From Brachionus manjavacas (taxonomy: Eukaryota > Rotifera > Eurotatoria > Ploima > Brachionidae): a stretch of 64,000 nt of DNA. Positions 8,162-64,000 of this stretch are shown piece by piece (positions within the stretch are counted from its first letter, which is position 1; every line of letters starts with the position of its first letter). Both the position numbers and the translations under genes were made by a program. The notes below the pieces were generated by a model, which made no database searches, had not been told where the DNA came from, and worked only from the letters and a program-made list of their open reading frames with translations. Where the stretch lies: NCBI GenBank assembly GCA_019054805.1, contig JAHQIY010000001.1, forward strand, positions 2,432,501 through 2,496,500, given 5' to 3'.

Positions 8162-8162
8162 A

Positions 8163-10385: not shown

Positions 10386-10449
10386 TACCAATGAGTCAAA
10401 CAAGGTCATTTTTGCTTGGGTCATTTTTGACCCATTTTGGACGGATAAG

Positions 10450-26826: not shown

Positions 26827-27587
26827 TTAATAATTTTTAATAATAATTAATAGTTATTAATAATAATTTTTGATTATAACTAATTGACTTAAGTTTTTGT
26901 CTTAAAAAAAAATTAATCAAAAGATAAATGAAAATTATTTTTAGATAAAAAATTGGCTGATTTTTTTTTTCGCAGAATTAAAAAAAGAAAATTAATTTTT
27001 TCGCTTACCTTTTTAAAATGACATTTATTCATCATGAAAATTTAAAAAAAGATTAATCAATCGGAAGAATCTTAAGAACAAAAGCGTCAGTATCGTGACT
27101 GATTAGTTTTTTTGTGCAATAATCATCTGATAACATATTATTAAAGTTAAGGTGAAATTCTCAAACGGTATCACATTTTAAACAAAATTGTTCTCATTGT
27201 TAATAAATTTAAATGATATGGATTAAATAAAAATGTTCAAAATTTTAATTCTTTTAGCTAAGGCTAGATAATTTTTTTCAACAAATTTTTAAAATTATTT
27301 CCTCTTTATGTTATATCTTAAATTGAAGAATTAATTTTTAAGTATTTTTCTATCAAAACTGATTTCCTAATGCGAAATTTATGTAACAGGACTGCTACAA
27401 AGCCTATTTGATAATCAGAAGTAATTTGAAAGACATAAAAATCGATTTTAAACAATTAGGAGTCTGAGGACATAGTAAATAATAATAAGAATACACCTAG
27501 CTCATTATAATAGTGGAAGTCAAAAATAAAAATAAAAAAAATTATTTTTAATTTTTGATTTCTTTATTTTAAATAAAAATTTAGACA
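26827..27587. other. intergenic, upstream of the GPCR
   Basis: AT-rich, starting with TAATAATTTTTAATAA simple sequence beside the LINE. A possible splice acceptor (AATTTAG|ACAATG) lies directly before the GPCR start codon, so an untranslated 5' exon may exist upstream. Confidence 0.5.
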
Positions 27588-38574: not shown

Positions 38575-39382
38575 ATTTTAGATTTAAAATTTTTTTTCTT
38601 AGCAAAAAGTTAGCCCCAAAAAGTTGTGAAAATACTTAAATAATAACCTAAAAAATCTGAATTTTTTTTTTTAATTAAAAATTAGATTCAATTAATTTTA
38701 TTAATTGCGATTGCAAGGTTTTTTATAAAACAAACCTGGTAAATTTACAAACTTAAAAAATATTCATGCTCATTATTTAAAATTCAACTAATAAGTTTTT
38801 CGTTATCTTTCTCGGCTCGATTTATGTTATGTAATTTTTTTCTTATAACCTTCAGTTTCTTTTATCAAACAAAAATATAAAAATTTTAACTACAGTTTTA
38901 TCTGTACAATTGCAGAGACAATTTTTTTCCGAAAAACCTCTTAAATTGTAAAAAAGTAAAGACAAAACGTTTTAACCATTAAACTATGTAATTTCTTTAT
39001 TTGAATAAACTTATTTTACTTTTTCACCAGGAAATTATTTCATGAACTAAAAAAGTTTATTGAATTACATTTTCACTCAAATCAGCAAAAAAGAGTCACT
39101 TCCTGGCCATGTCTTAGAGCATTTCTGTCTTCTATTTGAACCAACATGGTCTGAAGTAAACGAGTTTGTACATGAAGCAACCAAATAGAACCGCTCATTA
39201 GTATCCAAGTTTTTTTGGACTTATTCAGGTTGTTTTATACCAAGTCACTAGACCTTACTCTAGCAAAGAAGGTGAAGAGTAACTTTATTGTTCTAGTATC
39301 TGTAATTTTTACATCAGAACTCATCCGATTTCCTTGTTAAACGTATTGGAGTAGTTGTTTATGTTCATCAAACCCTCATGGT
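38575..39382 (+). repeat. foldback left arm, outer part
   Basis: Pairs with about 41483-42291. It contains unmistakable shared blocks such as CCTTACTCTAGCAAAGAAGG and ACTTCCTGGCCATGTCTTAG. No coding content. Confidence 0.85.
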
Positions 39383-39814
39383 TGAGTTAATCAACTTTCC
39401 AGAGATATCGACAAAGACGTCGCCAAATCACAGTATTCAACTCTTGAGTCTTCCAAGAAGAAAATTCAATTAATTTATCTGTAAGTAGCCAGAATTGGAG
39501 CCGGTTGAATCTAATAAATTTCTAATTAAAATTACTTAATAAATTTGTAATTCTTCTTTACAATTTCAAATCTTGAGTAGTCATAAAGTCAATTTTAATC
39601 AATGTTTAAACAACCTTAATTAAAAAAAGTTCTAAAGATTACGAGTTAAAATATCCTGAGCACTAAGAAAAAGGAAGTAAAGAATCAGTACTAACAAAGC
39701 TGGTGCCCTGTTGTTGTATTCAATAGAGAATTTTTATCTTAAAAAGTTAACTAGCTGTTAAATAGGTTGATTCGAATAATGGATTCGATCGATTCTATGA
39801 ACGCCGACGGCACT
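39383..39814. other. 432-bp segment present only in the left arm
   Basis: Interrupts the left arm between TTCATCAAA and ACTCGTAATT. In the right arm those two sequences are contiguous. It is slightly GC-richer and has no ORF. Either an insertion into the left arm or a deletion from the right one. Confidence 0.75.
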
Positions 39815-39967
39815 AACTCGTAATTTTTTAAACATCTTTTTTAGAATATCTAGCTAATTAATTTTAAAATAAATAGATTTTTTTAACCTTTTAAAATACG
39901 TAAATTTCATCTAAACTAAATTAATTAGACACAGCTATTTAATTATTTCAATACGCTAGACTAGCAA
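39815..39967 (+). repeat. foldback left arm, inner part
   Basis: Pairs with 41346-41493 (AATACGCTAGACTA against TAGTCTAGCGTATT at the inner boundary). Confidence 0.85.
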
Positions 39968-41345: not shown

Positions 41346-42291
41346 GTTAGTCTAGCGTATTGAAATAATTAAATAGCTGTGTCTAATTAATTTAGTTCAG
41401 ATGAAATTTACGTATTTTAAAAGGTTAAAAAAATCTATTTATTTTAAAATTAATTAGCTAGATATTCTAAAAAAGATGTTTAAAAAATTACGAGTTTGAT
41501 GAACATAAACAACTACTCCAATACGTTTAACAAGGAAATCGGATGAGTTCTAATGTAAAAATTACAGATACTAGAACAATAAAGTTACTCTTACCTTCTT
41601 TGCTAGAGTAAGGTCTAGTGACTTGGTATAAAACAACCTGAATAAGTCCAAAAAAACTTGGATACTACTGATCGGTTCTATTTGGATGCTTCATCTACAA
41701 ACTCGTTTACTTCAGACCATGTTGGTTCAAATAGAAGACAGAAATGCTCTAAGACATGGCCAGGAAGTGACTCTTTTTTGCTGATTTGAGTGAAAATGTA
41801 ATTCAATAAACTTTTTTAGTTCATGAAATAATTTCCTGGTGAAAAAGTAAAATAAGTTTATTCAAATAAAAAAATTACATAGTTTAATAGTTAAAACGTT
41901 TTGTCTTTACTTTTTTACAATTTAAGAGGTTTTTCGGAAAAAAATTGTCTCTGCAATTGTACAGATAAAACTGTAGTTAAAATTTTTATATTTTTGTTTG
42001 ATAAAAGAAACTGAAGGTTATAAGAAAAAAATTACATAACATAAATCGAGCCGAGAAAGATAACGAAAAACTTATTAGTTGAATTTTAAATAATGAGCAT
42101 GAATATTTTTTAAGTTTGTAAATTTACCAGGTTTGTTTTATAAAAAACCTTGCAATCGCAATTAATAAAATTAATTGAATCTAATTTTTAATTTAAAAAA
42201 AAAATTCAGATTTTTTAGGTTATTATTTAAGTATTTTCACAACTTTTAGGGGCTAACTTTTTGCAAAGAAAAAAAATTTTAAATCTAAAAT
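41346..42291 (-). repeat. foldback right arm (uninterrupted)
   Basis: 946 bp, the contiguous version of the arm. The unexplained minus-strand 86-codon ORF 42285-42545 begins outside and barely overlaps its end. Confidence 0.85.
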
Positions 42292-43240: not shown

Positions 43241-43524
43241 GATGTTCTTTTTAGTGTAAAATTAGAGCCTTGGTCTAGAAAAGACGCCCTTTTTATCCAT
43301 TTCTACTAAAAGTCAAAAAGAATGTTCTTTTTATACTTTTTAAAATCGAATATTCGCCTTGGTTTAGAAAAGACGTACTATTTGTCATTTTTGACTTTTC
43401 TAGACTAAGGCTAATATTAAATTCTAAAATGCATAAAAAGAACATTCTTTTTGAGCAAAAAAAGTCAAAAAGGATAAAAAGTACGTCTTTTCTAAACTAA
43501 GGTGAATATTAGATTTTAAAAAGT
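43241..43524. mobile_element. small foldback MITE
   Basis: Two arms of about 115 bp (about 43258-43373 and 43393-43510) are reverse complements. Shared blocks include CTTGGTCTAGAAAAGAC, AAAAAGAATGTTCTTTTTAT and CTTGGTTTAGAAAAGACGTA. The loop is about 20 bp. Each arm itself contains a tandem variant of the CCTTGGTxTAGAAAAGAC word. No coding capacity. Confidence 0.7.
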
Positions 43525-44345
43525 AAAAATTTAAAAAGTTCGAGAAGGAACAATTATTTCCAAATATTTTTTAAAATTAAACAAATATTTTGAAACTTTA
43601 ATTGAATTGTGCGAAGTCGAAATAAAATCGAAAATTGGGATAATTGTTTTTTTCAGGGGATCGTGCATCTTTAGAGAAATAAAAATGGATCCTTTTGGTC
43701 GGGAATATTTTTAATTACCGATCCTGTAGCATCAAGATACCAAACAGAATTTATTTCCTGAATTTTAACCAAATTTTTATCTTTAAATATATGAAGTTTT
43801 TATCTTTTAATATATATTTTGCATCATATTTTTTAAATAAAGTACCTGAATTTCATACATTAACATTAAACCAAAAGGGTATTCAGTCTCAAGTATCAAT
43901 TGAAACTACATACAATTCAAGTAAAAATATGCGTCGTTTTTGGCTTTTATTTAATAAATAAAATTGAATACAGTCAAGAAAATTTTATGCTCTTTCAGAA
44001 TATATAAAAAATTACAAATTTTTTTAATTTTATCATTGAATCCAGGGTCTGAAAGAACTTCAATTTTTATGGGGTATGTTATTTTTGGACTCATTATTTG
44101 ACTTGATCATTTTAACGTGCTCATTCCATTCATCAAAAGACATTCTAACTGCAAAATCGAATCGAGGTATAGACATAGTTTAAAGTTTTATAAAGTTTAA
44201 CTGTTTTTTGCTATTCGGGTATTTATTTTCCTTAATATGCTAAGAAAAATAACTAACCTTTCCTAAATTCTTCTCTTAAACTTCAATATTTTTTCTATTT
44301 AATTTCAAAATTTTTTAATTTTTAATTATATACACAAAAACAACA
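43525..44345. other. intergenic, nothing recognised
   Basis: AT-rich. The 88-codon frame at 43695 is low-complexity and is not called a gene. Confidence 0.5.
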
Positions 44346-44739: not shown

Positions 44740-46985
44740 CCATGAACTTCGCTAATTCGTCGATTAAACATTATTTTGGTTGTGACTGGGCAAGTTCAAT
44801 TCGAGTCGAGTCCAACTGATTCTGGATGCCGAGATTTGACTGTTTAACCGAGTCAATCTCCTTTAATCTTGGAACACAAGCTTGTCAATCTCGCTAGATA
44901 AAGATTCAATTCTTGAATTCAAAAAATCTTCATAAGATTTTTGAAGACCACCAAGTTCAATTCGAGTCGAGTGCAAATGGGTCTGGATGCTAAAATATTC
45001 TTCTTTCATTAATTTATAAGCTGTTTCTTTAAAATCTAACTCTTTATGCATTATTTCAAATTCACTTGTCTTTTCTGTAACCAAGATTTATTTTTCTTCT
45101 TTTAATTCCTCAAATATTTAATTTAATTTAATTTATTCATAAAAATTACGCCAGACTTGGCGATGTTATACATAGAAATATAATAAATATAAGAAATAGT
45201 TTAATTCACAAAAGTTAAGTTTTTTTTTCTTTAAAACTGAAAAATAAAAATAGACTGAACAATTATTTTTAGTGACTGAAATTCATAATTTTAATTTACA
45301 AATAATTTTTTCCATTTATATCTACATTATAAAATTAAATTCATTTATTATTCATTTTAATTGAAACAGAGATTTTTTTTTTTTTTTTTTTTATTCTTAC
45401 GGTCGGGATTTAAAAGCTTGGATTATTCCCGTGTAAGTACACTTTTACTAATAGTTTTAATTCTCGTGTTCTTTCTTCTATGTTATCTAGGCAGAATTTA
45501 ATCGATTCGGAAATTCAATTTTTGCTAAGTTTCTTATCTTCCTTTTTTATTTGTTTAATCTTGTCTTCAAGGATTTCTTCAGTTATTGGTTCGTCTAATC
45601 CAATAATTTCCTTTAATTCACTAATAAATTTGTTATTTCTGTTGTCTTTTGTTTCATTTGATTTAAATATTCTCAACGTAAAATCGTTAGCGAGAACTCT
45701 CTTAGCAAATCCAAGTTTTAGTTTTTTTATTTTTGACACTACAGGTTCTATATTCAGTGCATAAAGTAGGTTCGTCGTTCTTGATCTTTTTCCGAGGAAC
45801 AGCATTTGTTTGATCATTAAGCCTTCCATTGTTTGAATTTTTGTCCTTTCAGATTTACTAATAGTACAATTTTCTAGGCCGTAATACATTATTGGTCTTA
45901 CGTATGTTTTGAATAAGTGTGCCTTAAGTTGGGGACTAATATGTTTGCTCCCAATTTCTAGGTTGGTTTTAAGTAGGTAGAAAGCTCTCCAGGTGCTAAG
46001 TCTTCTTTCTCGTAGATGCTCTTTACTGTAATGTTTACCGTCTACCCACACACCAAGGTATTTTAATTTTCTTACCCATTCGATTTCTTCTCCACAAAGC
46101 TCGAGACTGGTCTCATCTTGCTTTGTTCCATTTATACGCATTATTTGGGTTTTTGTGGGATTGAATTTGATTTCAGTTTTGATTCCGAAAGTTTCACATA
46201 TTTTTAGTACTTTTTCCATTTTTTTGACCGAGTCTGTCATAATTAATAAGTCGTCATACATCAGTATTCCTGATTTTATTCCGTCTATGTCTGTTATTAG
46301 TTCTGTGCTCATAATTTCATTTATTAGATCTTCAACGTATATTGAAAATAGCTTCGGAGAGAGGGGTCCGCCTTGTTTTACACCGATTGACGTTTTGAAA
46401 ATTGAGGATATTTGATCTTTATTTTGGACAAAAGCAAGCGACTCTTCATAGTAGCTTTTTAATACCCTCCAAATCTCAGGATCAATTTTGCCAATCATGT
46501 TTTTTAACATGATTTCTCTGATTACTTTATCGAACGCTTTGCTGGCGTCAATTGCACATATAAATAACTTTTTTTTACGAGCTTTATAGTATTCTATAGT
46601 TTCGGTCAAGGTATAAATTCCATGATTTGTTGAGCTCTTTACTTTAAAGCCGAACTGTGTCTGAGGATCACTATGTTTTCTTTCCAATCTATGAAGGATG
46701 TATTTTTCAAACAAATTCGCAATGGTGTCAGATATTGTGATAGGTCTTGTGTTATTAATTTCGTTATTTGGACCGTTGTTATTCTTAAAATATGTCTTTT
46801 TTATTTTTTAGTTCAATAATTTTATCATCACAAATTGTTTTTAAACTTTCTTGGTGACCTCTTTCTAGTTTTTTTAATATAATTTTTCCGGCTTCTTTGA
46901 TTTCTAAAAGTTCTCTTTTTTCTTTTTTCATTTCAAAAATGTATTCATTTCTTTTTTTCAATTCCTCTCTTTGGTCATTAAAAAT
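44740..46985 (-). pseudogene. coiled-coil protein gene relic split by a LINE
   Basis: Two minus-strand pieces join logically across the LINE insertion. 46985-46787 reads REELKKRNEYIFEMKKEKRE ... DDKIIELKNKKDIF; 45117-44863 continues EELKEEK, a stop, ILVTEKTSEFEIMHKELDFK ... RIESLSSEIDKLVFQD. Further on, in another frame, come KEIDSVKQSNLGIQNQLDST and RIELAQSQPK. The whole is heptad-rich. A 164-bp direct repeat lies inside it (ACTCGACTCGAATTGAACTT at about 44790 and 44955). The upstream part abuts a Ty3/gypsy fossil near 46975. The parent could be a kinesin-like or other filament-associated protein; no motor domain is seen, so no name is given. Confidence 0.5.
45118..46786 (-). mobile_element. 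LINE inserted in the coiled-coil relic, 5'-truncated
   Basis: The minus-strand reading from about 46780 gives TRPITISDTIANLFEKYILH, QTQFGFKVKSSTNHGIYTLT, CAIDASKAFDKVIREI, GVKQGGPLSPKLFSIYVEDL, LMYDDLLIMTDS, and then a long open C-terminal region to the stop at 45515 (399 codons from the first Met at 46714). The catalytic motif is YDD, with the usual Ala of YADD absent, so activity is doubtful. The 3' UTR contains an A20 tract (about 45368-45390) and ends with the hairpin CGCC-AAGTCT-GGCG and TTAAA repeats. AAATAT at 45112-45117 and at about 46788-46792 looks like the target duplication. Its clade is distinct from the ACT-tailed LINEs. Confidence 0.8.
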
Positions 46986-49805
46986 CAGAAAAGACCCGAA
47001 AACGTTGAGAACATCCAATCTTTCATCGGTATGGCCTCTCACTACAGAAAGTTCATTAAGGATTTCTGTAAAACGTCTTTCCCTCTACATGAACTTTGCG
47101 CCAAAGACGTCTCTTTCGTTTCTGGAATGACGATTGCCAAGCCGCCTTCGACAAGCTAAAGGAAGCGCTTACCAATGAACCAGTCTTGACAATACCAGAC
47201 TTCAAAAAGCGATTCTTTTTGGAAACAGACGCTTCAAACAAGGGAATCGGCGTAGTATTGTCACAAATGGAATCAGAAGGCTAGTTAAGACCATTGGCTT
47301 ACTACTCAAGGAAACTGAGCAAAGCAGAGCAAAATTACTCAGCGTCGGAAAGAGAAATGCTTTCAATAGTAAACGCAGTCGAACATTTTAAAGAATTCTT
47401 ATATGGTGCTGAATTCTCAATTGTCACAGACCATCAACCACTAAAATGGATTAACAGCGTAAAAAATCCCGCTCCGATCTAATAAGATGGATAATGAGAC
47501 TCGAAAATATGTATTCGACATTTTGTACAGAACAGGCGTCGACAACCAAGCAGCTGACGGATTTTCCAGATGGCCAATGGATAAACTAACAGAGACGTCT
47601 GAGGACGAAAACGAAAGTTTCATTATAAATAATTTGGTAGGAAAAGGGTCAATCAACACAATTATGTTAAAAAATTTAGAAGGCGATTTAAGTAACCTCA
47701 ACCCCGACGAAAACATCGAATGGATCAAAAAAGTGATTGAAAGTGAAATAGGACACCAAGAAATCGAAGTTCAAAAATTAAACGACGAACAGGCTGACCC
47801 ATTAAAACAGTCAAAAAATCTCAAAGTACATAAAAATCAACTTTGGAGAGTAATCGAGAACGATAACGATCAAATACTCCAACTTGTAGTTCCTGAAGCT
47901 GACCAAAGAAAAAGAGACCCAGCGGAAAAACAAACAAGCCCGAGAGAGGAAAATGAGACGTCCTTCAATCCAAATATCAAACCATCACACAACACCAAAA
48001 CGGATAAGGCTTCTTTTTTAGAAAAATTTTAAAGGAGCTACCTCGAGAAGACGTCCAATAACGTGATTAGGTTGTATGACAAAATAAAAGTCAAAAACTA
48101 TAGGAACGGAATAGGGTGAAAGGAAGAAGAACGGGCAAAAAATGAAGCCAGGAGAGAGCTGTTGGACGAATTGTGCGAATTGTACCCAAAATACTATTTT
48201 TTATGATAAACACCACAAATCGGAAATGAGCGATTGGTCACTGTTTAAAATCAATAGTGAAATAGAAGTGACAAGGAAGTGGCAGCTAAAAAGAACCGCG
48301 ATAATTGAGCTCAATAAACTCGACCCAAGCCAAATGAAATTCGGTATGGAGGCTCAAAGGATGGATTGGCCTTTTGAGAAAATCCAATAAGAGAAAGAGA
48401 AGGCCAAAAAACGGATAGAGGAAAAAGCCGAAAATGAAACACCCTCGACTAATTTCACTTTTAGGGGGAAGTAGTAGTAGTAGTAGTTTTGACTGTAGCT
48501 GGCTAGCCAGCGAGTATGCTGATAAGGCACACTATGACAGCTGATGTGATTGATTGCTGCTCATCCAGCAATCAATGCCTGCTTTAAAGCTGTTAACATT
48601 AGGGGCTTCAACTAATTGATTTGGCAGTGAGTTCCATATGTTAGCGGTTCTGTTGAAAAAAAAGTTATCTCTATGTTGGAGCCTCGAAATTTCTTTGTGA
48701 TATTTGAAGCAGTGACCTCTTCCTTGGATTTTGATGACATTAAAATTGTTGATTTTTTCAACCAATTCTATTCCATGCATGAACTTGTATAATTGAATTA
48801 GATCACCTCTTTTTCTTCTTTCCACCAGATTTGGAATGTTTAAAGCCTTCAATCTGCTTTCATACGGTTTGTTTCTAATTGAAGAAACAAATTTCGTAGC
48901 TCTGCGTTGAATCCTCTCAAGATTCTCACAATCCGACTTAAGAAATGGAGACCATACAAGCACAGCAAATTCCAAAAGAGGACGAACAAAAGTTAAATAC
49001 AATGATCTAAATAACTTACAATCAAAACGAGCGAATGATTTCCTGATGCGACCCAACATTTGATTTGCTTTGTTTGTAGCCTCTATCACTTGGTTTTTCC
49101 ATTTGAGATTTGTATTGAAGATAACTCCAAGATCTCTTTCGGTTTCAGACGTTGATAACTGTTTACCATTAATAGAATAAGTGAATTCTTTGTTTTTATG
49201 ACCGTAATGCCACACATTTTGATGTGTTGAAGAGAAGAAGCCAATCTTGAGTCCACTTGAAAATTAAATCTAAATCTGATTGAAGTTTCACTGCGCATAT
49301 TTCTGATACCGTTTGCGAGAATATTTTTGTATCATCTGCATACATTTTGACAATATTCTCTATTCCTTTTGGTAGATCATTGATATACAAAACGAACAAA
49401 AGTGGACCAATCACTGATCCTTGTGGTAAACCGCTAAAAATTCCACCCAATCCGACAAAATTTCACCTTGAACAACTCGTTGTCTTCTATTTTTCAAAAA
49501 AAAGTGGTGTAGACGTCCAAGAAAAAAGCAAGTCAGGTTTGCTCAAAAAACGTTGTTTTGTTTTTTATATATATATGCTTTTCAGTTCAGTTGAATGATG
49601 AGTTTTATTGTTAAGTTTATATATAATTTAATTTTGTGTTGTTAATTTTTTGGTTTTGGATTTGGACCTCGTGTCCCAATAAAGTTATTTAAAAAACCTT
49701 ATTGTGTTAGCCTCGAGGGTTATGATCCGAAATCCTCGAGGCTAGAATAGGACTTGAGAAGTCTGACTGGGGAATAAAAGCCTACCAGCAGATCCATAAA
49801 TATTA
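46975..49805 (+). mobile_element. Ty3/gypsy LTR-retrotransposon fossil, 3' part, with nested LINE
   Basis: Old, broken copy. The end of the reverse transcriptase and an RNase H domain are recognisable from about 46975 to 47485 (FIGMASHYRKFIKDF; ETDASNKGIGVVLSQ; YYSRKLSKAEQNYSASEREM; TDHQPLKW). A charged downstream region runs to about 48440. A purine-rich AGGGGGAAG (48463-48471) is in the place of a polypurine tract. The minus-strand LINE at 48471-49495 sits at that point. A TG...CA-like stretch beyond it (about 49505-49805, with AATAAAG near 49679) may be the remaining 3' LTR. The 5' portion of the element (gag, protease, most of RT) and the 5' LTR are absent. Roughly half a dozen breaks. 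Age cannot be dated without an LTR pair. Confidence 0.7.
48471..49495 (-). mobile_element. CR1/L2-like LINE, 5'-truncated, inserted in the gypsy fossil
   Basis: Minus strand: RRQRVVQGEILSDWV, a frame change, GLPQGSVIGPLLFVLYINDL, KMYADDTKIF (catalytic YADD intact), QDWLLLFNTSKC, another frame change near 49205, then an open 227-codon C-terminus (ERDLGVIFNTNLKWKNQVIE ... NIWNSLPNQLVEAPNVNSFK). The 3' end has the palindrome GCTGGCTAGCCAGC (48498-48511), ACTGTC on the plus strand beside it, and an AGT repeat tail (48471-48487). It belongs with the copies at 20339 and 26374 by its end structure. Confidence 0.85.
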
Positions 49806-49834: not shown

Positions 49835-50645
49835 CTGTTCCTTTGGCGTCAACTTTGAAAACTCATTGCATCACACTCATTTTCGAGCTCATCACCTGCC
49901 TGTTCTGCAGTCGCTGCGACTGTCGTTTCGGCTGCATTGCCTGCAAACGCTTCTGCTTTAGTCTGTCCGCCTTGAAACATGGCCAGAATCACGTGCAAGT
50001 ACTGATTCCGGTCAGCTCTCCTATCTCGTCGTCCTGCTTTTCCTTCTTTTCCTTTAGCTACTCGGCCTTTGCAAGCTGCCACCTCGATGACCTGACCTCC
50101 CCCCCTTTTTTTTTTTTTCACCACTTTGCTCTTGATCTGCACTCCGGATTTCTCTCCTCGTACAGCCTCAGGTCGCCAAAGCACCAGAACCAAGTGCCCA
50201 CTGATTCCACTGCCAAAGTCTCCAGACACAGTTACTGGCTTTATAGTCGCTTAGCTTGGTCTAAATGTGTCTACGAGTTTTAGACGCTCTTGGTCGAGTC
50301 GTCTTTGCGCCCGCTGGCTAGGATTAAGTCCAGTTAGTATATGCGCAGTACTTAAAGCAAGAATTGATCAATATTTGTGACGTCTATTGATATTTTGGTG
50401 AAAGCTTTGATAATTTTTGGAGAAGATGAACAATGGTTATGTTGCGCTCGTTGCCACAGTCGTCGGGCAGCGTCCTCAAATTCGTCCACTCGTAGGTCGA
50501 TCAAGTCGATCAAGTCGATCAAGTCTTTTGCTCGAAAAAATAGGGCATTTTCCAGGATCGTCTTAGATCTTCCATCTTTCAAGCAAAGGGGCATGGTTAT
50601 CAGAAAGTGTCTTATGTGAATGTGACTCGAGTGGTGGACATGCAT
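49835..50645 (-). other. GC-rich island with overlapping ORFs, unclassified
   Basis: Composition jumps to near-balanced GC. Minus-strand readings include KDGRSKTILENALFFRAKDL, then LID repeats and RVDEFEDAARRLWQRAQHNH (50645-50352), and a 126-codon ORF 50229-49849 rich in Lys, Gly and Ala. A plus-strand frame of 146 codons (49843-50283) overlaps it. The tandem 9-mer TCGATCAAG (50502-50525) encodes the LID repeat. Possibilities are a GC-rich host exon cluster, a decayed retroelement coding region or horizontally acquired DNA. I cannot choose, and I do not name a function. Confidence 0.35.
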
Positions 50646-51721: not shown

Positions 51722-51972
51722 ACAAAAGCTATTCGTTCTTAAACTAAAGTGTGTGGTACAAGATCCACATCTCCAACTATTTTAATCTGAATCATCTTTT
51801 CTTTCACTCCAATATGTAGAACGTTTGCATTTTGGACAAATAAGTGACTTGTTTTTCAAGATATTTTTTTCGTTTAAGTAATAAATTAAGCCAAAAACTG
51901 GTCCATTAATAATATGTAAAAGATTATTTGATTCAAATTCTTGCATCATCATTAAAATCAAGTTTCTCAAAA
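51722..51972 (-). pseudogene. Merlin transposase relic, N-terminal part only (array border)
   Basis: Only the first 62 codons and the second half of the zinc ribbon up to THFSLRTNSF remain. Everything C-terminal is replaced by non-array sequence at 51721. This marks the left end of the array. Confidence 0.8.
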
Positions 51973-52800
51973 AAAAATTAAATCAAAGTTGCAAGAAATA
52001 AAATCAAATAATTTGAAAAAATGAAACTTTTATTTGCTTTTTTTTTACAATTTTTTTTGTGATCGTACGAATTCACATCTGTTCGTCAAACAAAAATTAC
52101 TGCTCGTAAAAATTGAAGATCAGATAAATTAATTGATTTACCTGGTCTAGACATGATTTCAACAATTTATTCCTGCTTCAAATGAATTAATGAAATTAAG
52201 TAGAGATTGAAAGTTAAATCAAAATCAACCCATGTCTATAATTGATTTTACGAAAAAAATTAATTTTTTTAGATGGTTTAAAAAACTAAATTTGGGATAA
52301 AAGTATACATTTTATTTTAATTAAATTTTTTTTGTACTAATTTTTAATTAATTGTAAAATTTTTTAGTTTTAGCTTTGATGGATAAAAAATTTCAAAAAG
52401 ATTTAATTTATTGATCAAGAATTTAAAAAAAAATACCAAAAAGTCAAACCTTGCAGGATTTTGAGTCTAAAAATTTAAAACGGAAAGACCCCCTTTTTGA
52501 AAAAAAAATGATTTCAAAATTTTGGTTAGAATTAAATTTGAATACAGCTTTAGTTATTTATTATTTAATGCATATTATTTCAAATCGCACAAAATACAAC
52601 ATATGTTATTTAAACAAAAGAAAAGTCATATTTAAAAAAAAAATTTTATCATGCTTAAATATAATTAGTTTGATATTATTAAAATTATAGATAATTCAAA
52701 TATAAATTTTGAATTATTATTGTTTTTAAACACATTTATTTTTTACATCCCTTTTTTTTTTCAAATAAATAATTCTAAAAATTAATTTTTTATAAATAAA

Positions 52801-53169
52801 ATGAATATTAAAATATTTACTGTCTTTTGTACGCTAGCAATATGTCCTTTTATCTCAGCAACCACAATTGAATGTTTATATCCTTATACCGTTAATGCAA
52901 ACAACAATGGTTTTCAAGGGACATATGTCAGTGGATGTACTGGTTATATTTCAACCTCAAATAGAAATGTAATGGTGAGAAATTCTTATTGTGGCACTGT
53001 TCAATTAAACGTTGCTTTAGAAATAAATAATGAAGAGCAAGATTGGGACACCATTCCTCCAGGTCAAGCAAAATATCTTTATGTTTTTAGAACTGGTAAT
53101 TTTAGAATTAGAATAAGTTCTCAATCTGGTTACGCATCTAGCTGCAGATTCGAAGTGACATACCAGTAA
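52801..53169 (+). CDS. secreted four-cysteine protein, array copy 1
   Basis: 122 residues in one exon. It starts with a clear signal peptide (MNIKIFTVFCTLAICPFISA, cleavage near residue 20). The mature part of about 102 residues has four Cys (25, 46, 64, 115), enough for two disulfides. It alternates short hydrophobic strands with polar turns (VQLNVALEI, IPPGQAKYLYVF, NFRIRISSQSG), suggesting a small all-beta fold. No transmembrane segment follows. I do not recognise a family; a role outside the cell (defence, coat or mucus, or signalling) is possible but unsupported. TATAAATAAA directly precedes the ATG, and AATAAA follows at 53222. The neighbouring transposase is convergent downstream and divergent upstream. 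Confidence 0.85.
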   Translation: MNIKIFTVFCTLAICPFISATTIECLYPYTVNANNNGFQGTYVSGCTGYISTSNRNVMVRNSYCGTVQLNVALEINNEEQDWDTIPPGQAKYLYVFRTGNFRIRISSQSGYASSCRFEVTYQ

Positions 53170-53914
53170 TATCAACTTAAAATTTCTTTTAATATTAATT
53201 TTTGATTTAATTTATAAGCACAATAAATAATTAGAAAAAAATCATTAATTCTTTCAGTAAAGCTAATTAAAATAGAAATTAAATGGTAAGTAAAATTACC
53301 TTTGCTTATCAAAAATATAAGAGATTTTCTTTCTTAAAGTGATTAATTTTTTGATCAATTTAATTCTTCTTTTAATTGATTTAAAATATCCCTAAATAAT
53401 ATTGCGAAAAAAACTGCCCATAAAAGCATTTTATCTTTTAAAAATGAATGCGCACAATTTCGAATATTTCTTAATACTTAGATACCGGAATTATTTTTAA
53501 ACGTTAAGTACTAAAAGAGTCCAAAAAACCGCTTTTAAATATAATTCTTTAAAAGAAATCGTAAAATATGTTTTAAAAAAGTATTTTTATTTAAAATAAA
53601 TGTATCCGGTAGTTGTTTAATAACCATCAAATGTAAACTTGGTCTAAAGAAAGCTTGAGAAACCTTTACTTTATATCGTTCATTTAATTTAAGATTGTCT
53701 GTCATTGCTTAGTTGAAAATCATTAAAAATGCTGAGAGAATGTCTCATTTATTTGACCTAAAACATAGATTACTGGTTCTGACTTCTCACAAAAATTTTT
53801 TATTATTCTTTTATAGTCGAATGTCTTTTATCCGAGACTCCTTCATCCGTAAAATTTGACATTCGTTCTATTTCTTACGGTCAAACTCCCTCTTTGATAA
53901 AAGCAAAGGAATTT

Positions 53915-55322
53915 TTTTTTTTTTAAATCGAAATTTTTTGTTCGGACGGCCTCTATTTCTTTTAATTGGGATATTAATTACGTCTTCAATATTATTGTCT
54001 CTAAGAACACTTTCCAATCATATACTAAATAATTTCTGATTTAATTTATCGCATTCATAAGGAACATCAATTGAAGAAAAATAAATAGTTAACTTTTTAA
54101 ATCGAGTGCCTTTAGTTTTTTTCTTTAAGCAGTATAAATCGCAAAGTTCATGTATTATTTTACGTTTTTTGAACTAAGACAACTCCTAAAAGTAAAACTT
54201 TCAAATTCTCGACTTTTAATTTTGAGTAATAATGTCTTTAATTGATGAAATAAATGAAATCTAATTAAAATCATTAATGTAAACACAACTCGATTCAATT
54301 TCAAAACATAATAAATTATCATCATATTTATGCATAGATTTAGCAGGTGCAGCATAGCCATCTAAATACTCATAAACAAAATTATTTATATCCCCATCTT
54401 GTAAATCGGGATTCTGTCTCTTTAAACCAGGAATCCTTTAAGTTTTTTCCATCAATTTCCGGTGAAAATTCGACTCAAATCGCCTCTATTATTGCTTCAA
54501 AAGCACCATGTCTACTTAAGTTTAAATTATGGCGCCAATCAAACTCGGCTTAGTATGATTGTAAATATACACCCCTCATTTTTTTTAAATGAATTTAAGC
54601 AGAATTCCAAATCGATTCAATCGAATTGGTACGGACTCTTGTTGTAGGATCTACAAAGAAAAGATCATGATTGACGGTTAGATGGATGTAATTTTTATTT
54701 ATAAGTCTAATTCGGTTATAGGGTGACCAACAATCGGAGTGGAAGATCAATTACGGAGCTATATGCCTATAAATAATGTCCAAAAGATTTACACCATCGC
54801 GTTTATGAACGACAAATAATAGACATTTTCGGGATCCTCTTTCGTACATGCCAAACACCTATTCTCTCTCTCTTTAAAAATCTTTCCCTTTTCAATATTT
54901 GATACGTACAAAAAGTGACTCATCGATCTCAACGACCTTACTGTCACTACCCAATACAAGTTATCCCTTGTTTATTTATTTTATACAAATTGTTCTTAAA
55001 TACTTAAAACACCGACTAATGACCAAAAATAAATTATGTTTACCAATTATACAAGCTGAATGTGAAAAAGGCTACAAAAGCTATTCGTTCTTAAACTAAA
55101 GTGTGTGGTACAAGATCCACATCTCCAACTATTTTAATCTGAATCATCTTTTCTTTCACTCCAATATGTAGAACGTTTGCATTTTGGACAAATAAGTGAC
55201 TTGTTTTTCAAGATATTTTTTTCGTTTAAGTAATAAATTAAGCCAAAAACTGGTCCATTAATAATATGTAAAAGATTATTTGATTCAAATTCTTGCATCA
55301 TCATTAAAATCAAGTTTCTCAA
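53915..55322 (-). pseudogene. Merlin (ISXO2-like) DDE transposase relic, copy 1, with R3H-like tail
   Basis: Read on the minus strand: a zinc ribbon with CPKC and, after a stop, RCGSC followed by THFSLRTNSF; a DDE core with VVEIDES, VFGMYERGSRKCLLFVVHKR, FHSDCWSPYNRI and NSIESIWNSA; then AEFDWRHNLNLSRHGAFEAI. These are the signature blocks of Merlin/ISXO2 transposases. Downstream, ESFTFRSCLSSK and RKIIHELCDLYCLKKKTKG resemble an R3H nucleic-acid-binding domain (R-x3-H). KRNRGRPNKKFRF follows, like an AT-hook. At least six stops and two frame changes are visible. In this copy the R3H segment has an extra frame break in a T run near 54170. Terminal inverted repeats of the original transposon were not identified. 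Confidence 0.8.
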
Positions 55323-56150
55323 AAAAAAATTAAATCAAAGTTGCAAGAAATAAAATCAAATAATTTGAAAAAATGAAACTTTTATTTGCTTTTTTTTTAC
55401 AATTTTTTTTTGTGATCGTACGAATTCACATCTGTTCGTCAAACAAAAATTACTGCTCGTAAAAATTGAAGATCAGATAAATTAATTGATTTACCTGGTC
55501 TAGACATGATTTCAACAATTTATTCCTGCTTCAAATGAATTAATGAAATTAAGTAGAGATTGAAAGTTAAATCAAAATCAACCCATGTCTATAATTGATT
55601 TTACGAAAAAAATTAATTTTTTTAGATGGTTTAAAAAACTAAATTTGGGATAAAAGTATACATTTTATTTTAATTAAATTTTTTTTGTACTAATTTTTAA
55701 TTAATTGTAAAATTTTTTAGTTTTAGCTTTGATGGATAAAAAATTTCAAAAAGATTTAATTTATTGATCAAGAATTTAAAAAAAAATACCAAAAAGTCAA
55801 ACCTTGCAGGATTTTGAGTCTAAAAATTTAAAACGGAAAGACCCCCTTTTTGAAAAAAAATGATTTCAAAATTTTGGTTAGAATTAAATTTGAATACAGC
55901 TTTAGTTATTTATTATTTAATGCATATTATTTCAAATCGCACAAAATACAACATATGTTATTTAAACAAAAGAAAAGTCATATTTAAAAAAAATTTTATC
56001 ATGCTTAAATATAATTAGTTTGATATTATTAAAATTATAGATAATTCAAATATAAATTTTGAATTATTATTGTTTTTAAACACATTTATTTTTTACATCC
56101 CTTTTTTTTTTCAAATAAATAATTCTAAAAATTAATTTTTTATAAATAAA
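55323..56150. other. intra-array spacer (divergent promoter side)
   Basis: Lies between the transposase start (-) and the next secreted gene (+), so it must contain the gene's promoter. Near 55373 a plus-strand ATG opens MKLLFAFF-, a signal-peptide-like start whose frame after the first T run differs between units. A frame beginning MQDFESKNLKRKDPLFEK lies about 350 bp before the gene. Neither is convincingly coding. The same spacer occurs at 51973-52800, 58668-59485 and 63341-64000. Confidence 0.5.
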
Positions 56151-56519
56151 ATGAATATTAAAATATTTACTGTCTTTTGTACGCTAGCAATATGTCCTTT
56201 TATCTCAGCAACCACAATTGAATGTTTATATCCTTATACCGTTAATGCAAACAACAATGGTTTTCAAGGGACATATGTCAGTGGATGTACTGGTTATATT
56301 TCAACCTCAAATAGAAATGTAATGGTGAGAAATTCTTATTGTGGCACTGTTCAATTAAACGTTGCTTTAGAAATAAATAATGAAGAGCAAGATTGGGACA
56401 CCATTCCTCCAGGTCAAGCAAAATATCTTTATGTTTTTAGAACTGGTAATTTTAGAATTAGAATAAGTTCTCAATCTGGTTACGCATCTAGCTGCAGATT
56501 CGAAGTGACATACCAGTAA
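56151..56519 (+). CDS. secreted four-cysteine protein, array copy 2
   Basis: Identical to copy 1 at every coding base I compared, with the same 5' leader and 3' AATAAA. Its flanks match unit 1 in A/T run lengths at several sites (for example nine A after TTTCTC near 55320), so units 1 and 2 form one sequence subtype. Confidence 0.85.
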   Translation: MNIKIFTVFCTLAICPFISATTIECLYPYTVNANNNGFQGTYVSGCTGYISTSNRNVMVRNSYCGTVQLNVALEINNEEQDWDTIPPGQAKYLYVFRTGNFRIRISSQSGYASSCRFEVTYQ

Positions 56520-57257
56520 TATCAACTTAAAATTTCTTTTAATATTAATTTTTGATTTAATTTATAAGCACAATAAATAATTAGAAAAAAATCATTAATT
56601 CTTTCAGTAAAGCTAATTAAAATAGAAATTAAATGGTAAGTAAAATTACCTTTGCTTATCAAAAATATAAGAGATTTTCTTTCTTAAAGTGATTAATTTT
56701 TTGATCAATTTAATTCTTCTTTTAATTGATTTAAAATATCCCTAAATAATATTGCGAAAAAACTGCCCATAAAAGCATTTTATCTTTTAAAAATGAATGC
56801 GCACAATTTCGAATATTTCTTAATACTTAGATACCGGAATTATTTTTAAACGTTAAGTACTAAAAGAGTCCAAAAAACCGCTTTTAAATATAATTCTTTA
56901 AAAGAAATCGTAAAATATGTTTTAAAAAGTATTTTTATTTAAAATAAATGTATCCGGTAGTTGTTTAATAACCATCAAATGTAAACTTGGTCTAAAGAAA
57001 GCTTGAGAAACCTTTACTTTATATCGTTCATTTAATTTAAGATTGTCTGTCATTGCTTAGTTGAAAATCATTAAAAATGCTGAGAGAATGTCTCATTTAT
57101 TTGACCTAAAACATAGATTACTGGTTCTGACTTCTCACAAAAATTTTTTATTATTCTTTTATAGTCGAATGTCTTTTATCCGAGACTCCTTCATCCGTAA
57201 AATTTGACATTCGTTCTATTTCTTACGGTCAAACTCCCTCTTTGATAAAAGCAAAGG

Positions 57258-58667
57258 AATTTTTTTTTAAATCGAAATTTTTTGTTCGGACGGCCTCTAT
57301 TTCTTTTAATTGGGATATTAATTACGTCTTCAATATTATTGTCTCTAAGAACACTTTCCAATCATATACTAAATAATTTCTGATTTAATTTATCGCATTC
57401 ATAAGGAACATCAATTGAAGAAAAATAAATAGTTAACTTTTTAAATCGAGTGCCTTTAGTTTTTTTCTTTAAGCAGTATAAATCGCAAAGTTCATGTATT
57501 ATTTTACGTTTTTTTGAACTAAGACAACTCCTAAAAGTAAAACTTTCAAATTCTCGACTTTTAATTTTGAGTAATAATGTCTTTAATTGATGAAATAAAT
57601 GAAATCTAATTAAAATCATTAATGTAAACACAACTCGATTCAATTTCAAAACATAATAAATTATCATCATATTTATGCATAGATTTAGCAGGTGCAGCAT
57701 AGCCATCTAAATACTCATAAACAAAATTATTTATATCCCCATCTTGTAAATCGGGATTCTGTCTCTTTAAACCAGGAATCCTTTAAGTTTTTTCCATCAA
57801 TTTCCGGTGAAAATTCGACTCAAATCGCCTCTATTATTGCTTCAAAAGCACCATGTCTACTTAAGTTTAAATTATGGCGCCAATCAAACTCGGCTTAGTA
57901 TGATTGTAAATATACACCCCTCATTTTTTTTAAATGAATTTAAGCAGAATTCCAAATCGATTCAATCGAATTGGTACGGACTCTTGTTGTAGGATCTACA
58001 AAGAAAAGATCATGATTGACGGTTAGATGGATGTAATTTTTATTTATAAGTCTAATTCGGTTATAGGGTGACCAACAATCGGAGTGGAAGATCAATTACG
58101 GAGCTATATGCCTATAAATAATGTCCAAAAGATTTACACCATCGCGTTTATGAACGACAAATAATAGACATTTTCGGGATCCTCTTTCGTACATGCCAAA
58201 CACCTATTCTCTCTCTCTTTAAAAATCTTTCCCTTTTCAATATTTGATACGTACAAAAAGTGACTCATCGATCTCAACGACCTTACTGTCACTACCCAAT
58301 ACAAGTTATCCCTTGTTTATTTATTTTATACAAATTGTTCTTAAATACTTAAAACACCGACTAATGACCAAAAATAAATTATGTTTACCAATTATACAAG
58401 CTGAATGTGAAAAAGGCTACAAAAGCTATTCGTTCTTAAACTAAAGTGTGTGGTACAAGATCCACATCTCCAACTATTTTAATCTGAATCATCTTTTCTT
58501 TCACTCCAATATGTAGAACGTTTGCATTTTGGACAAATAAGTGACTTGTTTTTCAAGATATTTTTTTCGTTTAAGTAATAAATTAAGCCAAAAACTGGTC
58601 CATTAATAATATGTAAAAGATTATTTGATTCAAATTCTTGCATCATCATTAAAATCAAGTTTCTCAA
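57258..58667 (-). pseudogene. Merlin transposase relic, copy 2
   Basis: Same blocks and the same stops as copy 1. Here the R3H-like segment is open as part of a 114-codon frame (57706-57362), because the T run near 57512 is one base longer. HSDCW is preceded by a stop in place of the Lys seen in the 61.9-63.3 kb copy. Confidence 0.8.
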
Positions 58668-59485
58668 AAAAATTAAATCAAAGTTGCAAGAAATAAAATC
58701 AAATAATTTGAAAAAATGAAACTTTTATTTGCTTTTTTTACAATTTTTTTTGTGATCGTACGAATTCACATCTGTTCGTCAAACAAAAATTACTGCTCGT
58801 AAAAATTGAAGATCAGATAAATTAATTGATTTACCTGGTCTAGACATGATTTTAACAATTTATTCCTGCTTCAAATGAATTAATGAAATTAAGTAGAGAT
58901 TGAAAGTTAAATCAAAATCAACCCATGTCTATAATTGATTTTACGAAAAAATTAATTTTTTTAGATGGTTTAAAAAACTAAATTTGGGATAAAAGTATAC
59001 ATTTTATTTTAATTAAATTTTTTTTGTACTAATTTTTAATTAATTGTAAAATTTTTAGTTTTAGCTTTGATGGATAAAAAATTTCAAAAAGATTTAATTT
59101 ATTGATCAAGAATTTAAAAAAATACCAAAAAGTCAAACCTTGCAGGATTTTGAGTCTAAAAATTTAAAACGGAAAGACCCCCTTTTTGAAAAAAAAAATG
59201 ATTTCAAAATTTTGGTTAGAATTAAATTTGAATACAGCTTTAGTTATTTATTATTTAATGCATATTATTTCAAATCGCACAAAATACAACATATGTTATT
59301 TAAACAAAAGAAAAGTCATATTTAAAAAAATTTTATCATGCTTAAATATAATTAGTTTGATATTATTAAAATTATAGATAATTCAAATATAAATTTTGAA
59401 TTATTATTGTTTTTAAACACATTTATTTTTTACATCCCTTTTTTTTCAAATAAATAATTCTAAAAATTAATTTTTTATAAATAAA

Positions 59486-59854
59486 ATGAATATTAAAATA
59501 TTTACTGTCTTTTGTACGCTAGCAATATGTCCTTTTATCTCAGCAACCACAATTGAATGTTTATATCCTTATACCGTTAATGCAAACAACAATGGTTTTC
59601 AAGGGACATATGTCAGTGGATGTACTGGTTATATTTCAACCTCAAATAGAAATGTAATGGTGAGAAATTCTTATTGTGGCACTGTTCAATTAAACGTTGC
59701 TTTAGAAATAAATAATGAAGAGCAAGATTGGGACACCATTCCTCCAGGTCAAGCAAAATATCTTTATGTTTTTAGAACTGGTAATTTTAGAATTAGAATA
59801 AGTTCTCAATCTGGTTACGCATCTAGCTGCAGATTCGAAGTGACATACCAGTAA
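59486..59854 (+). CDS. secreted four-cysteine protein, array copy 3
   Basis: Identical protein to the other copies. It heads the shortened unit: only about 970 bp separate its stop codon from the next gene, because most of the transposase and the upstream spacer are deleted. Confidence 0.85.
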   Translation: MNIKIFTVFCTLAICPFISATTIECLYPYTVNANNNGFQGTYVSGCTGYISTSNRNVMVRNSYCGTVQLNVALEINNEEQDWDTIPPGQAKYLYVFRTGNFRIRISSQSGYASSCRFEVTYQ

Positions 59855-60587
59855 TATCAACTTAAAATTTCTTTTAATATTAATTTTTGATTTAATTTAT
59901 AAGCACAATAAATAATTAGAAAAAAATCATTAATTCTTTCAGTAAAGCTAATTAAAATAGAAATTAAATGGTAAGTAAAATTACCTTTGCTTATCAAAAA
60001 TATAAGAGATTTTCTTTCTTAAAGTGATTAATTTTTTGATCAATTTAATTCTTCTTTTAATTGATTTAAAATATCCCTAAATAATATTGCGAAAAAAACT
60101 GCCCATAAAAGCATTTTATCTTTTAAAAATGAATGCGCACAATTTCGAATATTTCTTAATACTTAGATACCGGAATTATTTTTAAACGTTAAGTACTAAA
60201 AGAGTCCAAAAAACCGCTTTTAAATATAATTCTTTAAAAGAAATCGTAAAATATGTTTTAAAAAGTATTTTTATTTAAAATAAATGTATCCGGTAGTTGT
60301 TTAATAACCATCAAATGTAAACTTGGTCTAAAGAAAGCTTGAGAAACCTTTACTTTATATCGTTCATTTAATTTAAGATTGTCTGTCATTGCTTAGTTGA
60401 AAATCATTAAAAATGCTGAGAGAATGTCTCATTTATTTGACCTAAAACATAGATTACTGGTTCTGACTTCTCACAAAAATTTTTTATTATTCTTTTATAG
60501 TCGAATGTCTTTTATCCGAGACTCCTTCATCCGTAAAATTTGACATTCGTTCTATTTCTTACGGTCAAACTCCCTCTTTGAATAGGA

Positions 60588-60727
60588 ATTTTTATTTTTT
60601 TAAAATCGAAATTTTTTGTTCGGACGGCCTCTATTTCTTTTAATTGGGATATCAATTACGTCTTCAATATTATTGTCTCTAAGAACACTTTCCAATCATA
60701 TACTAGATAATTTCTGATTTAATTTAT
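60588..60727 (-). pseudogene. Merlin relic, C-terminal tip only (deletion junction)
   Basis: Retains only the RGRP-containing end. At about 60725-60727 the sequence switches from transposase (GATTTAATTTAT) to the spacer just before a secreted gene (AAATTTTGAATTATT), with a shared TAT at the junction. About 2 kb is missing compared with a full unit. Confidence 0.85.
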
Positions 60728-60824
60728 AAATTTTGAATTATTATTGTTTTTAAACACATTTATTTTTTACATCCCTTTTTTTTTTCAAATAAATAATTCT
60801 AAAAATTAATTTTTTATAAATAAA

Positions 60825-61193
60825 ATGAATATTAAAATATTTACTGTCTTTTGTACGCTAGCAATATGTCCTTTTATCTCAGCAACCACAATTGAATGTT
60901 TATATCCTTATACCGTTAATGCAAACAACAATGGTTTTCAAGGGACATATGTCAGTGGATGTACTGGTTATATTTCAACCTCAAATAGAAATGTAATGGT
61001 GAGAAATTCTTATTGTGGCACTGTTCAATTAAACGTTGCTTTAGAAATAAATAATGAAGAGCAAGATTGGGACACCATTCCTCCAGGTCAAGCAAAATAT
61101 CTTTATGTTTTTAGAACTGGTAATTTTAGAATTAGAATAAGTTCTCAATCTGGTTACGCATCTAGCTGTAGATTCGAAGTGACATACCAGTAA
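60825..61193 (+). CDS. secreted four-cysteine protein, array copy 4
   Basis: Same 122-residue protein. The only coding difference I found among the four copies is here: the codon for Cys115 is TGT (61167-61169) instead of TGC, a silent change. Confidence 0.85.
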   Translation: MNIKIFTVFCTLAICPFISATTIECLYPYTVNANNNGFQGTYVSGCTGYISTSNRNVMVRNSYCGTVQLNVALEINNEEQDWDTIPPGQAKYLYVFRTGNFRIRISSQSGYASSCRFEVTYQ

Positions 61194-61927
61194 TATCAAC
61201 TTAAAATTTCTTTTAATATTAATTTTTGATTTAATTTATAAGCACAATAAATAATTAGAAAAAAATCATTAATTCTTTCAGTAAAGCTAATTAAAATAGA
61301 AATTAAATGGTAAGTAAAATTACCTTTGCTTATCAAAAATATAAGAGATTTTCTTTCTTAAAGTGATTAATTTTTTGATCAATTTAATTCTTCTTTTAAT
61401 TTATTTAAAATATCCCTAAATAATATTGCGAAAAAAACTGCCCATAAAAGCATTTTATCTTTTAAAAATGAATGCGCACAATTTCGAATATTTCTTAATA
61501 CTTAGATACCGGAATTATTTTTAAACGTTAAGTACTAAAAGAGTCCAAAAAACCGCTTTTAAATATAATTCTTTAAAAGAAATCGTAAAATATGTTTTAA
61601 AAAAGTATTTTTATTTAAAATAAATGTATCCGGTAGTTGTTTAATAACCATCAAATGTAAACTTGGTCTAAAGAAAGCTTGAGAAACCTTTACTTTATAT
61701 CGTTCATTTAATTTAAGATTGTCTGTCATTGCTTAGTTGAAAATCATTAAAAATGCTGAGAGAATGTCTCATTTATTTGACCTAAAACATAGATTACTGG
61801 TTCTGACTTCTCACAAAAATTTTTTATTATTCTTTTATAGTCGAATGTCTTTTATCCGAGACTCCTTCATCCGTAAAATTTGACATTCGTTCTATTTCTT
61901 ACGGTCAAACTCCCTCTTTGAATAGGA

Positions 61928-63340
61928 ATTTTTATTTTTTTAAAATCGAAATTTTTTGTTCGGACGGCCTCTATTTCTTTTAATTGGGATATTAATTACG
62001 TCTTCAATATTATTGTCTCTAAGAACACTTTCCAATCATATACTAAATAATTTCTGATTTAATTTATCGCATTCATAAGGAACATCAATTGAAGAAAAAT
62101 AAATAGTTAACTTTTTAAATCGAGTGCCTTTAGTTTTTTTCTTTAAGCAGTATAAATCGCAAAGTTCATGTATTATTTTACGTTTTTTTGAACTAAGACA
62201 ACTCCTAAAAGTAAAACTTTCAAATTCTCGACTTTTAATTTTGAGTAATAATGTCTTTAATTGATGAAATAAATGAAATCTAATTAAAATCATTAATGTA
62301 AACACAACTCGATTCAATTTCAAAACATAATAAATTATCATCATATTTATGCATAGATTTAGCAGGTGCAGCATAGCCATCTAAATACTCATAAACAAAA
62401 TTATTTATATCCCCATCTTGTAAATCGGGATTCTGTCTCTTTAAACCAGGAATCCTTTAAGTTTTTTCCATCAATTTCCGGTGAAAATTCGACTCAAATC
62501 GCCTCTATTATTGCTTCAAAAGCACCATGTCTACTTAAGTTTAAATTATGGCGCCAATCAAACTCGGCTTAGTATGATTGTAAATATACACCCTCATTTT
62601 TTTTAAATGAATTTAAGCAGAATTCCAAATCGATTCAATCGAATTGGTACGGACTCTTGTTGTAGGATCTACAAAGAAAAGATCATGATTGACGGTTAGA
62701 TGGATGTAATTTTTATTTATAAGTCTAATTCGGTTATAGGGTGACCAACAATCGGAGTGGAAGATCAATTTCGGAGCTATATGCCTATAAATAATGTCCA
62801 AAAGATTTACACCATCGCGTTTATGAACGACAAATAATAGACATTTTCGGGATCCTCTTTCGTACATGCCAAACACCTATTCTCTCTCTCTTTAAAAATC
62901 TTTCCCTTTTCAATATTTGATACGTACAAAAAGTGACTCATCGATCTCAACGACCTTACTGTCACTACCCAATACAAGTTATCCCTTGTTTATTTATTTT
63001 ATACAAATTGTTCTTAAATACTTAAAACACCGACTAATGACCAAAAATAAATTATGTTTACCAATTATACAAGCTGAATGTGAAAAAGGCTACAAAAGCT
63101 ATTCGTTCTTAAACTAAAGTGTGTGGTACAAGATCCACATCTCCAACTATTTTAATCTGAATCATCTTTTCTTTCACTCCAATATGTAGAACGTTTGCAT
63201 TTTGGACAAATAAGTGACTTGTTTTTCAAGATATTTTTTTCGTTTAAGTAATAAATTAAGCCAAAAACTGGTCCATTAATAATATGTAAAAGATTATTTG
63301 ATTCAAATTCTTGCATCATCATTAAAATCAAGTTTCTCAA
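61928..63340 (-). pseudogene. Merlin transposase relic, copy 3 (least damaged)
   Basis: As the other copies, but the DDE-core reading is longer: 87 codons (62876-62613) run through IIYRHIAPKLIFHSDCWSPY to NSIESIWNSA without the stop seen between the first and second blocks in copies 1 and 2. It therefore preserves the ancestral base at that site. Shared stops elsewhere keep it dead. Confidence 0.8.
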
Positions 63341-64000
63341 AAAAATTAAATCAAAGTTGCAAGAAATAAAATCAAATAATTTGAAAAAATGAAACTTTTA
63401 TTTGCTTTTTTTACAATTTTTTTTTGTGATCGTACGAATTCACATCTGTTCGTCAAACAAAAATTACTGCTCGTAAAAATTGAAGATCAGATAAATTAAT
63501 TGATTTACCTGGTCTAGACATGATTTTAACAATTTATTCCTGCTTCAAATGAATTAATGAAATTAAGTAGAGATTGAAAGTTAAATCAAAATCAACCCAT
63601 GTCTATAATTGATTTTACGAAAAAATTAATTTTTTTAGATGGTTTAAAAAACTAAATTTGGGATAAAAGTATACATTTTATTTTAATTAAATTTTTTTTG
63701 TACTAATTTTTAATTAATTGTAAAATTTTTTAGTTTTAGCTTTGATGGATAAAAAATTTCAAAAAGATTTAATTTATTGATCAAGAATTTAAAAAAATAC
63801 CAAAAAGTCAAACCTTGCAGGATTTTGAGTCTAAAAATTTAAAACGGAAAGACCCCCTTTTTGAAAAAAATGATTTCAAAATTTTGGTTAGAATTAAATT
63901 TGAATACAGCTTTAGTTATTTATTATTTAATGCATATTATTTCAAATCGCACAAAAAACAACATATGTTATTTAAACAAAAGAAAAGTCATATTTAAAAA
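63341..64000. other. start of unit 5, cut by window edge
   Basis: Spacer sequence matching 58668-59330 up to the last base. A fifth secreted gene would be expected to begin roughly 130-160 bp beyond the window. Confidence 0.8.

Follow-up and report, generated by a model that had tools for sequence, protein, structure and literature searches.

Tandem arrays of small genes and the transposases of the Merlin group have both been described in other organisms, and these systems provide the references for the locus analysed here. The CUP1 arrays of Saccharomyces cerevisiae are reported to have formed by unequal nonhomologous recombination (PMC4232551). Merlin elements have been paired with IS1016-like elements (PMC5718144), and their terminal inverted repeats are described as 24-462 bp in length and starting with GG, being imperfect or missing in some elements (PMC8101967). 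Two mmr-a copies were reported on one fosmid (PMC3495898), and the rotifer Brachionus asplanchnoidis has been described as having satellite arrays as well as duplicated genes (PMC8447722). In the 64-kb window, by which we mean the whole stretch of DNA that was analysed, we found a tandem array in which a small intact gene lies beside the relic of a transposase. With a probability of about 0.8, we consider this array to be a recent local tandem duplication that grew by exchange between its units, with the transposase relic as a passenger.

Upon comparison with the CUP1 arrays, as these are described in PMC4232551, the present array was found to be similar in several respects. In each, a small gene lies in units of kb size that follow one another head to tail. 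Homology is at most 3 bp at the CUP1 junctions and 3 bp at the present deletion junction, and the divergence between units is low in both (0.5% in CUP1 and 0.10-0.55% here). Some differences were also present. In particular, the 3-bp overlap in the present array belongs to a deletion junction and not to a duplication seam. In addition, the same source describes single-copy strains that reveal the origin of CUP1 and copper as an agent that selects longer arrays, whereas the present array offers neither.

Self-BLAST of the window, combined with alignment, revealed direct repeats of approximately 3.34 kb with approximately 99% identity that extend from position 51722 to the end of the window. Position 64000 is the edge of the window and not the right end of the array, whose right flank lies outside our view. 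The starts of units U1 to U4 were set at an arbitrary phase. Two units are full, namely U1 (52701-56050, 3350 bp) and U2 (56051-59387, 3337 bp), and U4 (60725-64000) is cut by the window end; these three were delimited by self-BLAST and alignment. The letters at the junctions were used additionally for the partial, gene-less left-most unit U0 (51722-52700, 979 bp) and for the truncated unit U3 (59388-60724, 1337 bp), which retains the gene and is without the DDE transposase. Altogether, the window contains four copies of the gene and three copies of the DDE relic (in U1, U2 and U4). The distances between successive gene starts are 3350, 3335 and 1339 bp, the last of which is short owing to a 2.0-kb deletion in U3 that removed the DDE part of the transposase. 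The copies are adjacent and arranged head to tail, no spacer between the units was found by self-BLAST, identity is high and homology covers the whole unit, as in a young tandem segmental duplication array. The original prediction had described repeats of about 3.34 kb, each with the gene and the transposase; the repeats are real, but U0 is without the gene and U3 without the DDE transposase, and the array is thus less regular than had been described. The window also holds animal-type genes, including those for a polycystin channel, an angiotensin-converting-enzyme-type peptidase and a rhodopsin-type receptor, and a search of the window against Rfam gave no match at the gathering score.

The gene is a single open frame of 122 codons on the forward strand, located at 52801-53169, 56151-56519, 59486-59854 and 60825-61193. 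The second and third copies are identical in DNA to the first, the fourth differs by one synonymous change, and an identical protein is encoded by all four. An AATAAA motif begins 53 bp beyond the stop codon in each copy. As judged by length alone, with U1 as the model for 400 first-order Markov sequences, an open frame of 122 codons was reached in two of these (approximately 0.005), and the frame is likely to be a real gene, although length alone does not make this certain. The N-terminus carries a hydrophobic stretch, with 9-residue hydropathy reaching 2.33 among the windows sampled, and this stretch is probably a signal peptide. The earlier description of an intact 122-codon gene for a secreted protein holds for the same open frame at all four positions, with secretion itself being putative. 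The protein contains six cysteines, two of which (residues 10 and 15) lie inside the putative signal peptide, and no N-glycosylation motif.

No family model was matched by the 122-aa protein in Pfam or in NCBIfam (E up to 1 in each), and no chain of a solved structure was matched in the PDB (E up to 10). Of the pattern stretches found in searches for homologues, 43 in the genome_contigs collection and 12 in the viral_contigs collection, none was confirmed by tblastn, and no plasmid match was obtained at E up to 1; these collections are prokaryotic, viral, plasmid or curated and none is eukaryotic, which makes the absence of matches weak evidence. The AlphaFold2 model from the single sequence had a mean pLDDT of 32.8 and was unusable as a fold model. 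The array gene resembles the mmr-b mate recognition genes of Brachionus, as described in PMC3495898, in its (putative) signal peptide and in its near-identical copies, whose likeness in mmr-b has been attributed to concerted evolution. In contrast, the mmr-b repeats are 261-276 bp long and lie inside the coding frame (PMC3495898), the comparison being one of gene build and not of sequence. Assignment of the array gene as a rotifer mate recognition gene was set aside for this different build, on the description given in that report.

We compared the units with one another and found 1-9 substitutions per pair, corresponding to 0.10-0.55% over nine overlapping pairs, and many of the further differences were in homopolymer length. 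Twelve substitutions were inferred over 8912 branch-sites, of which 1 fell among 1107 coding sites and 11 among 7805 non-coding sites. Given the non-coding rate, 1.56 coding changes would be expected without constraint, and the difference is not significant (Fisher p=1.0), with few changes and low power. Low-complexity sequence of uncertain alignment contains five of the 11 non-coding changes (columns 1206, 1225, 2699, 2700 and 2705); when these were dropped, the coding expectation fell to approximately 0.85 and the conclusion was the same. Among all possible single changes, 78.6% would alter or stop the 122-aa protein, and the probability of obtaining four identical proteins without selection is approximately 0.29.

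These values bear on the proposal that selection for dosage favoured additional copies of the gene for the secreted protein, as it did for CUP1 in yeast. The proposal agrees with the identical protein in all four copies and a lone change that is synonymous, with the AATAAA motif present 53 bp past every stop and with U3 having lost the DDE relic yet retained the gene. However, one coding change was seen where 1.56 were expected without selection, and an outcome with no protein change would arise by chance in more than a quarter of such cases. Since the units are very young, an intact and identical gene is expected even without selection, and the contrast between an intact gene and a wrecked transposase tells only the state of each at the time of duplication. 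The earlier claim that the copy-number increase was favoured for the secreted product thus found no support in the substitutions, in a test of low power. The absence of a substitution signal is compatible with recent selection for dosage; overall, we regard amplification for dosage as distinctly unlikely.

The relic lies on the reverse strand. Its DDE_Tnp_IS1595 (Merlin-type) domain was located with PF12762 and tblastn at 54526-54936 in U1, with tblastn at 57871-58281 in U2, and with alignment and tblastn at 62545-62954 in U4. With stops written as X, the relic matched PF12762 with E=1.7e-13 (51.3 bits, cut-off 27), and an uninterrupted stretch of U4 matched the same model with E=1.8e-6 (28.5 bits). 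The NCBIfam IS1595 model gave E=1.4e-12 with a score of 47.9, below its curated cut-off of 75. When transposase relatives were searched for, 1 of 112 stretches was confirmed in genome_contigs and none of 10 in viral_contigs. The confirmed relative (L001, from the bacterium Mucilaginibacter terrigena) aligns over the DDE domain with 28% identity (tblastn E=2e-08), and the D, D and E positions of the relic domain match those of this relative in the alignment. We take these positions to be the catalytic residues. As read from these matches, the relic is an IS1595/Merlin-type transposase.

Upstream of the DDE part, the relic of U1 contains a zinc-ribbon-like part (55074-55298, reverse strand; CPKC...CGSC), which matched PF12760 with E=0.013, below the cut-off, other zinc-ribbon models scoring at least as well. 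By-eye comparison revealed that a zinc ribbon followed by the DDE domain is also the order in the bacterial relative. No NCBIfam family matched the linker between the two parts. A 114-aa frame that directly follows the relic and is read in the same orientation is open in U2 (57362-57706) and in U4 (62036-62380); its match to PF01424 (R3H) had E=1.6e-4 and 22.1 bits against a cut-off of 26.8. In the reading of U1, one piece of this region gave E=0.17 for R3H and another gave no match; a longer piece was without a family, and the frame downstream of the relic is at most weakly R3H-like. The overall character of the relic is that of the Merlin, IS1016 and IS1595-type transposases (PMC8101967), with a DDE_Tnp_IS1595 domain whose D, D and E align with those of a bacterial relative. 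In contrast to these, the relic is broken by stops and frameshifts and is followed by the weakly R3H-like frame, and no terminal inverted repeats were found for it in the stretches searched. Moreover, the relic appears zinc-ribbon-like at its N-terminus, whereas the Merlins described so far in that source are without the IS1595 zinc domain (PMC8101967).

The decay of the transposase could be read directly from the units. The DDE frame of U1 (54999-54400) contains nine stops and its equivalent in U2 also nine; one further stop lies in the zinc-ribbon-like part, and the frame changes between the parts of the relic. Eight of the nine DDE-frame stops are common to U1, U2 and U4 in the DNA, while the ninth is a lysine codon in U4. 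Relative to U1 and U2, the U4 relic also has a 1-bp deletion (column 1874) that shifts the frame, and the U1 relic has one base fewer downstream (column 1466) than those of U2 and U4. An active element needs an intact transposase, and none was found among these copies. The original prediction that every unit has the same stops is correct for the eight that are common, but not for the ninth, and U3 has no DDE domain in which to carry them. Its further statement that the transposase had died before the array formed is borne out by the eight common stops: the death of the relic predates the array, with small later changes. The formation of the array in cis was therefore not the work of this transposase, which was dead by then.

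In a search for terminal inverted repeats between 53170-54000 and 55250-56150, the best score was 18.2 against a chance mean of maxima of 19.0 (sd 1.8) from 40 Markov samples, where the ends of the element may be eroded or may lie outside these stretches. The locus had been described as a dead Merlin transposon; the transposase relic stands, but the word transposon is too strong, given that the search of these two stretches gave no terminal inverted repeat beyond chance. Since no element ends could be set, at which the 8-9-bp target-site duplications of Merlin elements would lie, only a transposase relic is claimed here. The same result weighs against the explanation that the unit is itself mobile and that an active Merlin transposase encoded elsewhere moved it in trans, with the gene as cargo, which would account for the close association of gene and relic in every full unit. 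Head-to-tail packing without a spacer, and an array edge and a deletion that are unlike element ends, also argue against this explanation. Apart from the three DDE copies, the only tblastn match in the 64 kb was a single 18-residue stretch with E=0.13. We consider movement as a mobile unit to be very improbable.

The left edge of the array at 51722 corresponds to phase 55074 of U1, inside the transposase-relic segment. U0 starts at this point, and the phase-equivalent of the zinc-ribbon-like part is its sole relic remnant. The relic of the full units seems to run through this phase from zinc ribbon to DDE domain, judging from its order and strand and from comparison by eye. With such continuity across phase 55074, the edge at 51722 would be no transposon end. 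It is probably not the original duplication seam either, and more likely arose through a later deletion or at an assembly join. At the other irregular point, the U3/U4 junction at approximately 60725-60727, 3 bp (TAT) are common to both sides, including the bases preceding the point at which the unit resumes.

Such an abrupt edge within the relic segment is also what might be seen if misassembly or the joining of haplotypes had produced the left edge, the junction at 60725 or some of the units, and homopolymer length, in which many of the inter-unit differences consist, is a frequent type of sequencing error. However, a simple duplicated-contig error would yield units that are identical or that differ at random, whereas here the units have distinct substitutions, the 2.0-kb deletion is private to U3, and several variants are shared between neighbours. 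As read from the alignment columns, U1 and U2 group against U3 and U4 at columns 1198-1204, 1206 and 1225, and U0 and U1 group against U2 and U4 at columns 2699, 2700 and 2815. Variants that cross this neighbour pattern are found at columns 875, 1213-1216, 2705 and 3156 and are mostly in homopolymers or low-complexity sequence. An assembly artefact is accordingly held to be unlikely.

Taking the array as a recent local duplication, we infer the recombination routes and the sequence of events as follows. The starting point would have been a single-copy segment in which the small intact gene lay beside the long-dead IS1595/Merlin-type relic. By illegitimate recombination or the ordinary repair of a break, this segment may have been duplicated head to tail. 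That copies of the transposon gave the homology from which the array started, one of two options suggested earlier, is not supported: there is one relic per full unit, and a second copy was not seen in the window left of the array. With two units present, the entire 3.3-kb unit is homologous, and unequal crossing over, gene conversion or both between the units would then have enlarged and homogenised the array. Later, end-joining would have taken 2.0 kb out of the third unit, and it probably also cut the left edge within the relic. Throughout these steps, the relic would have been carried as a passenger.

For the biology of such arrays, the locus carries a caution, namely that the presence of an intact gene next to a transposase relic does not speak for selection as long as the repeats are too young for the gene to have decayed. 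A bolder and distinctly unlikely reading is that the gene encodes a lineage-specific, putatively secreted protein that is currently undergoing dosage amplification, in a young array of which single-, few- and many-copy haplotypes should still segregate. If true, the haplotypes of a small invertebrate would form a dosage series that occurs naturally. As it stands, the array is one more young tandem array, and it would gain greater importance if individuals were to differ in copy number in step with the expression of the putative secreted protein.

To the left of the tandem array, a reverse transcriptase was detected on the minus strand at 45515-46807 (PF00078, E=2.1e-27). On the plus strand, the region 8040-10492 carried a weak endonuclease match over 8040-8723 (PF03372, E=4.8e-4), which fell under the cut-off. 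By eye, the frames at 8807-10492 and 26418-26846 also appeared retroelement-like, and the domain scan revealed no match for the frame at 48532-49263.

Self-comparison of the window revealed a long inverted repeat (38575-39373 / 41494-42291) with arms of ~0.8 kb showing 98.6% identity; an inner inverted pair (39815-39963 / 41348-41496) showed 99.3% identity, and the left arm was split by a 441-bp insert (39374-39814). The outer ends showed no target duplication of 3-12 bp, and the sequence between them contained no stop-free frame of >70 codons. This repeat may be a fold-back-type element or a MITE-like relic. The same comparison identified a 187-bp inverted pair (13193-13379 / 19068-19254; 95.7% identity), possibly a short dispersed repeat, and an imperfect self-complementary palindrome of ~200-240 bp at 43268-43529, which matches its reverse complement at 76-78% identity. 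G+C content was raised over 49850-50525 (47% in 50000-50499 versus 27% overall). This stretch includes a tandem repeat with a 9-bp period (GTCGATCAA; 50496-50525).

Within the array, an open frame was present on the minus strand immediately downstream of the dead Merlin-type transposase (57362-57706 and, equivalently, 62036-62380). Its R3H-domain match was weak (E=1.6e-4, under the cut-off), and an RGRPNKK stretch, read in the DNA, follows it. This R3H-like frame may belong to the element as a second ORF, or may be a dead gene in its own right. Upstream of the DDE domain, on the same minus strand, we observed a zinc-ribbon-like CxxC...CxxC segment (55074-55298). Merlins so far described are without such a zinc domain, according to a survey (PMC8101967); the relic would differ from them in carrying this segment, whose match was under the cut-off.
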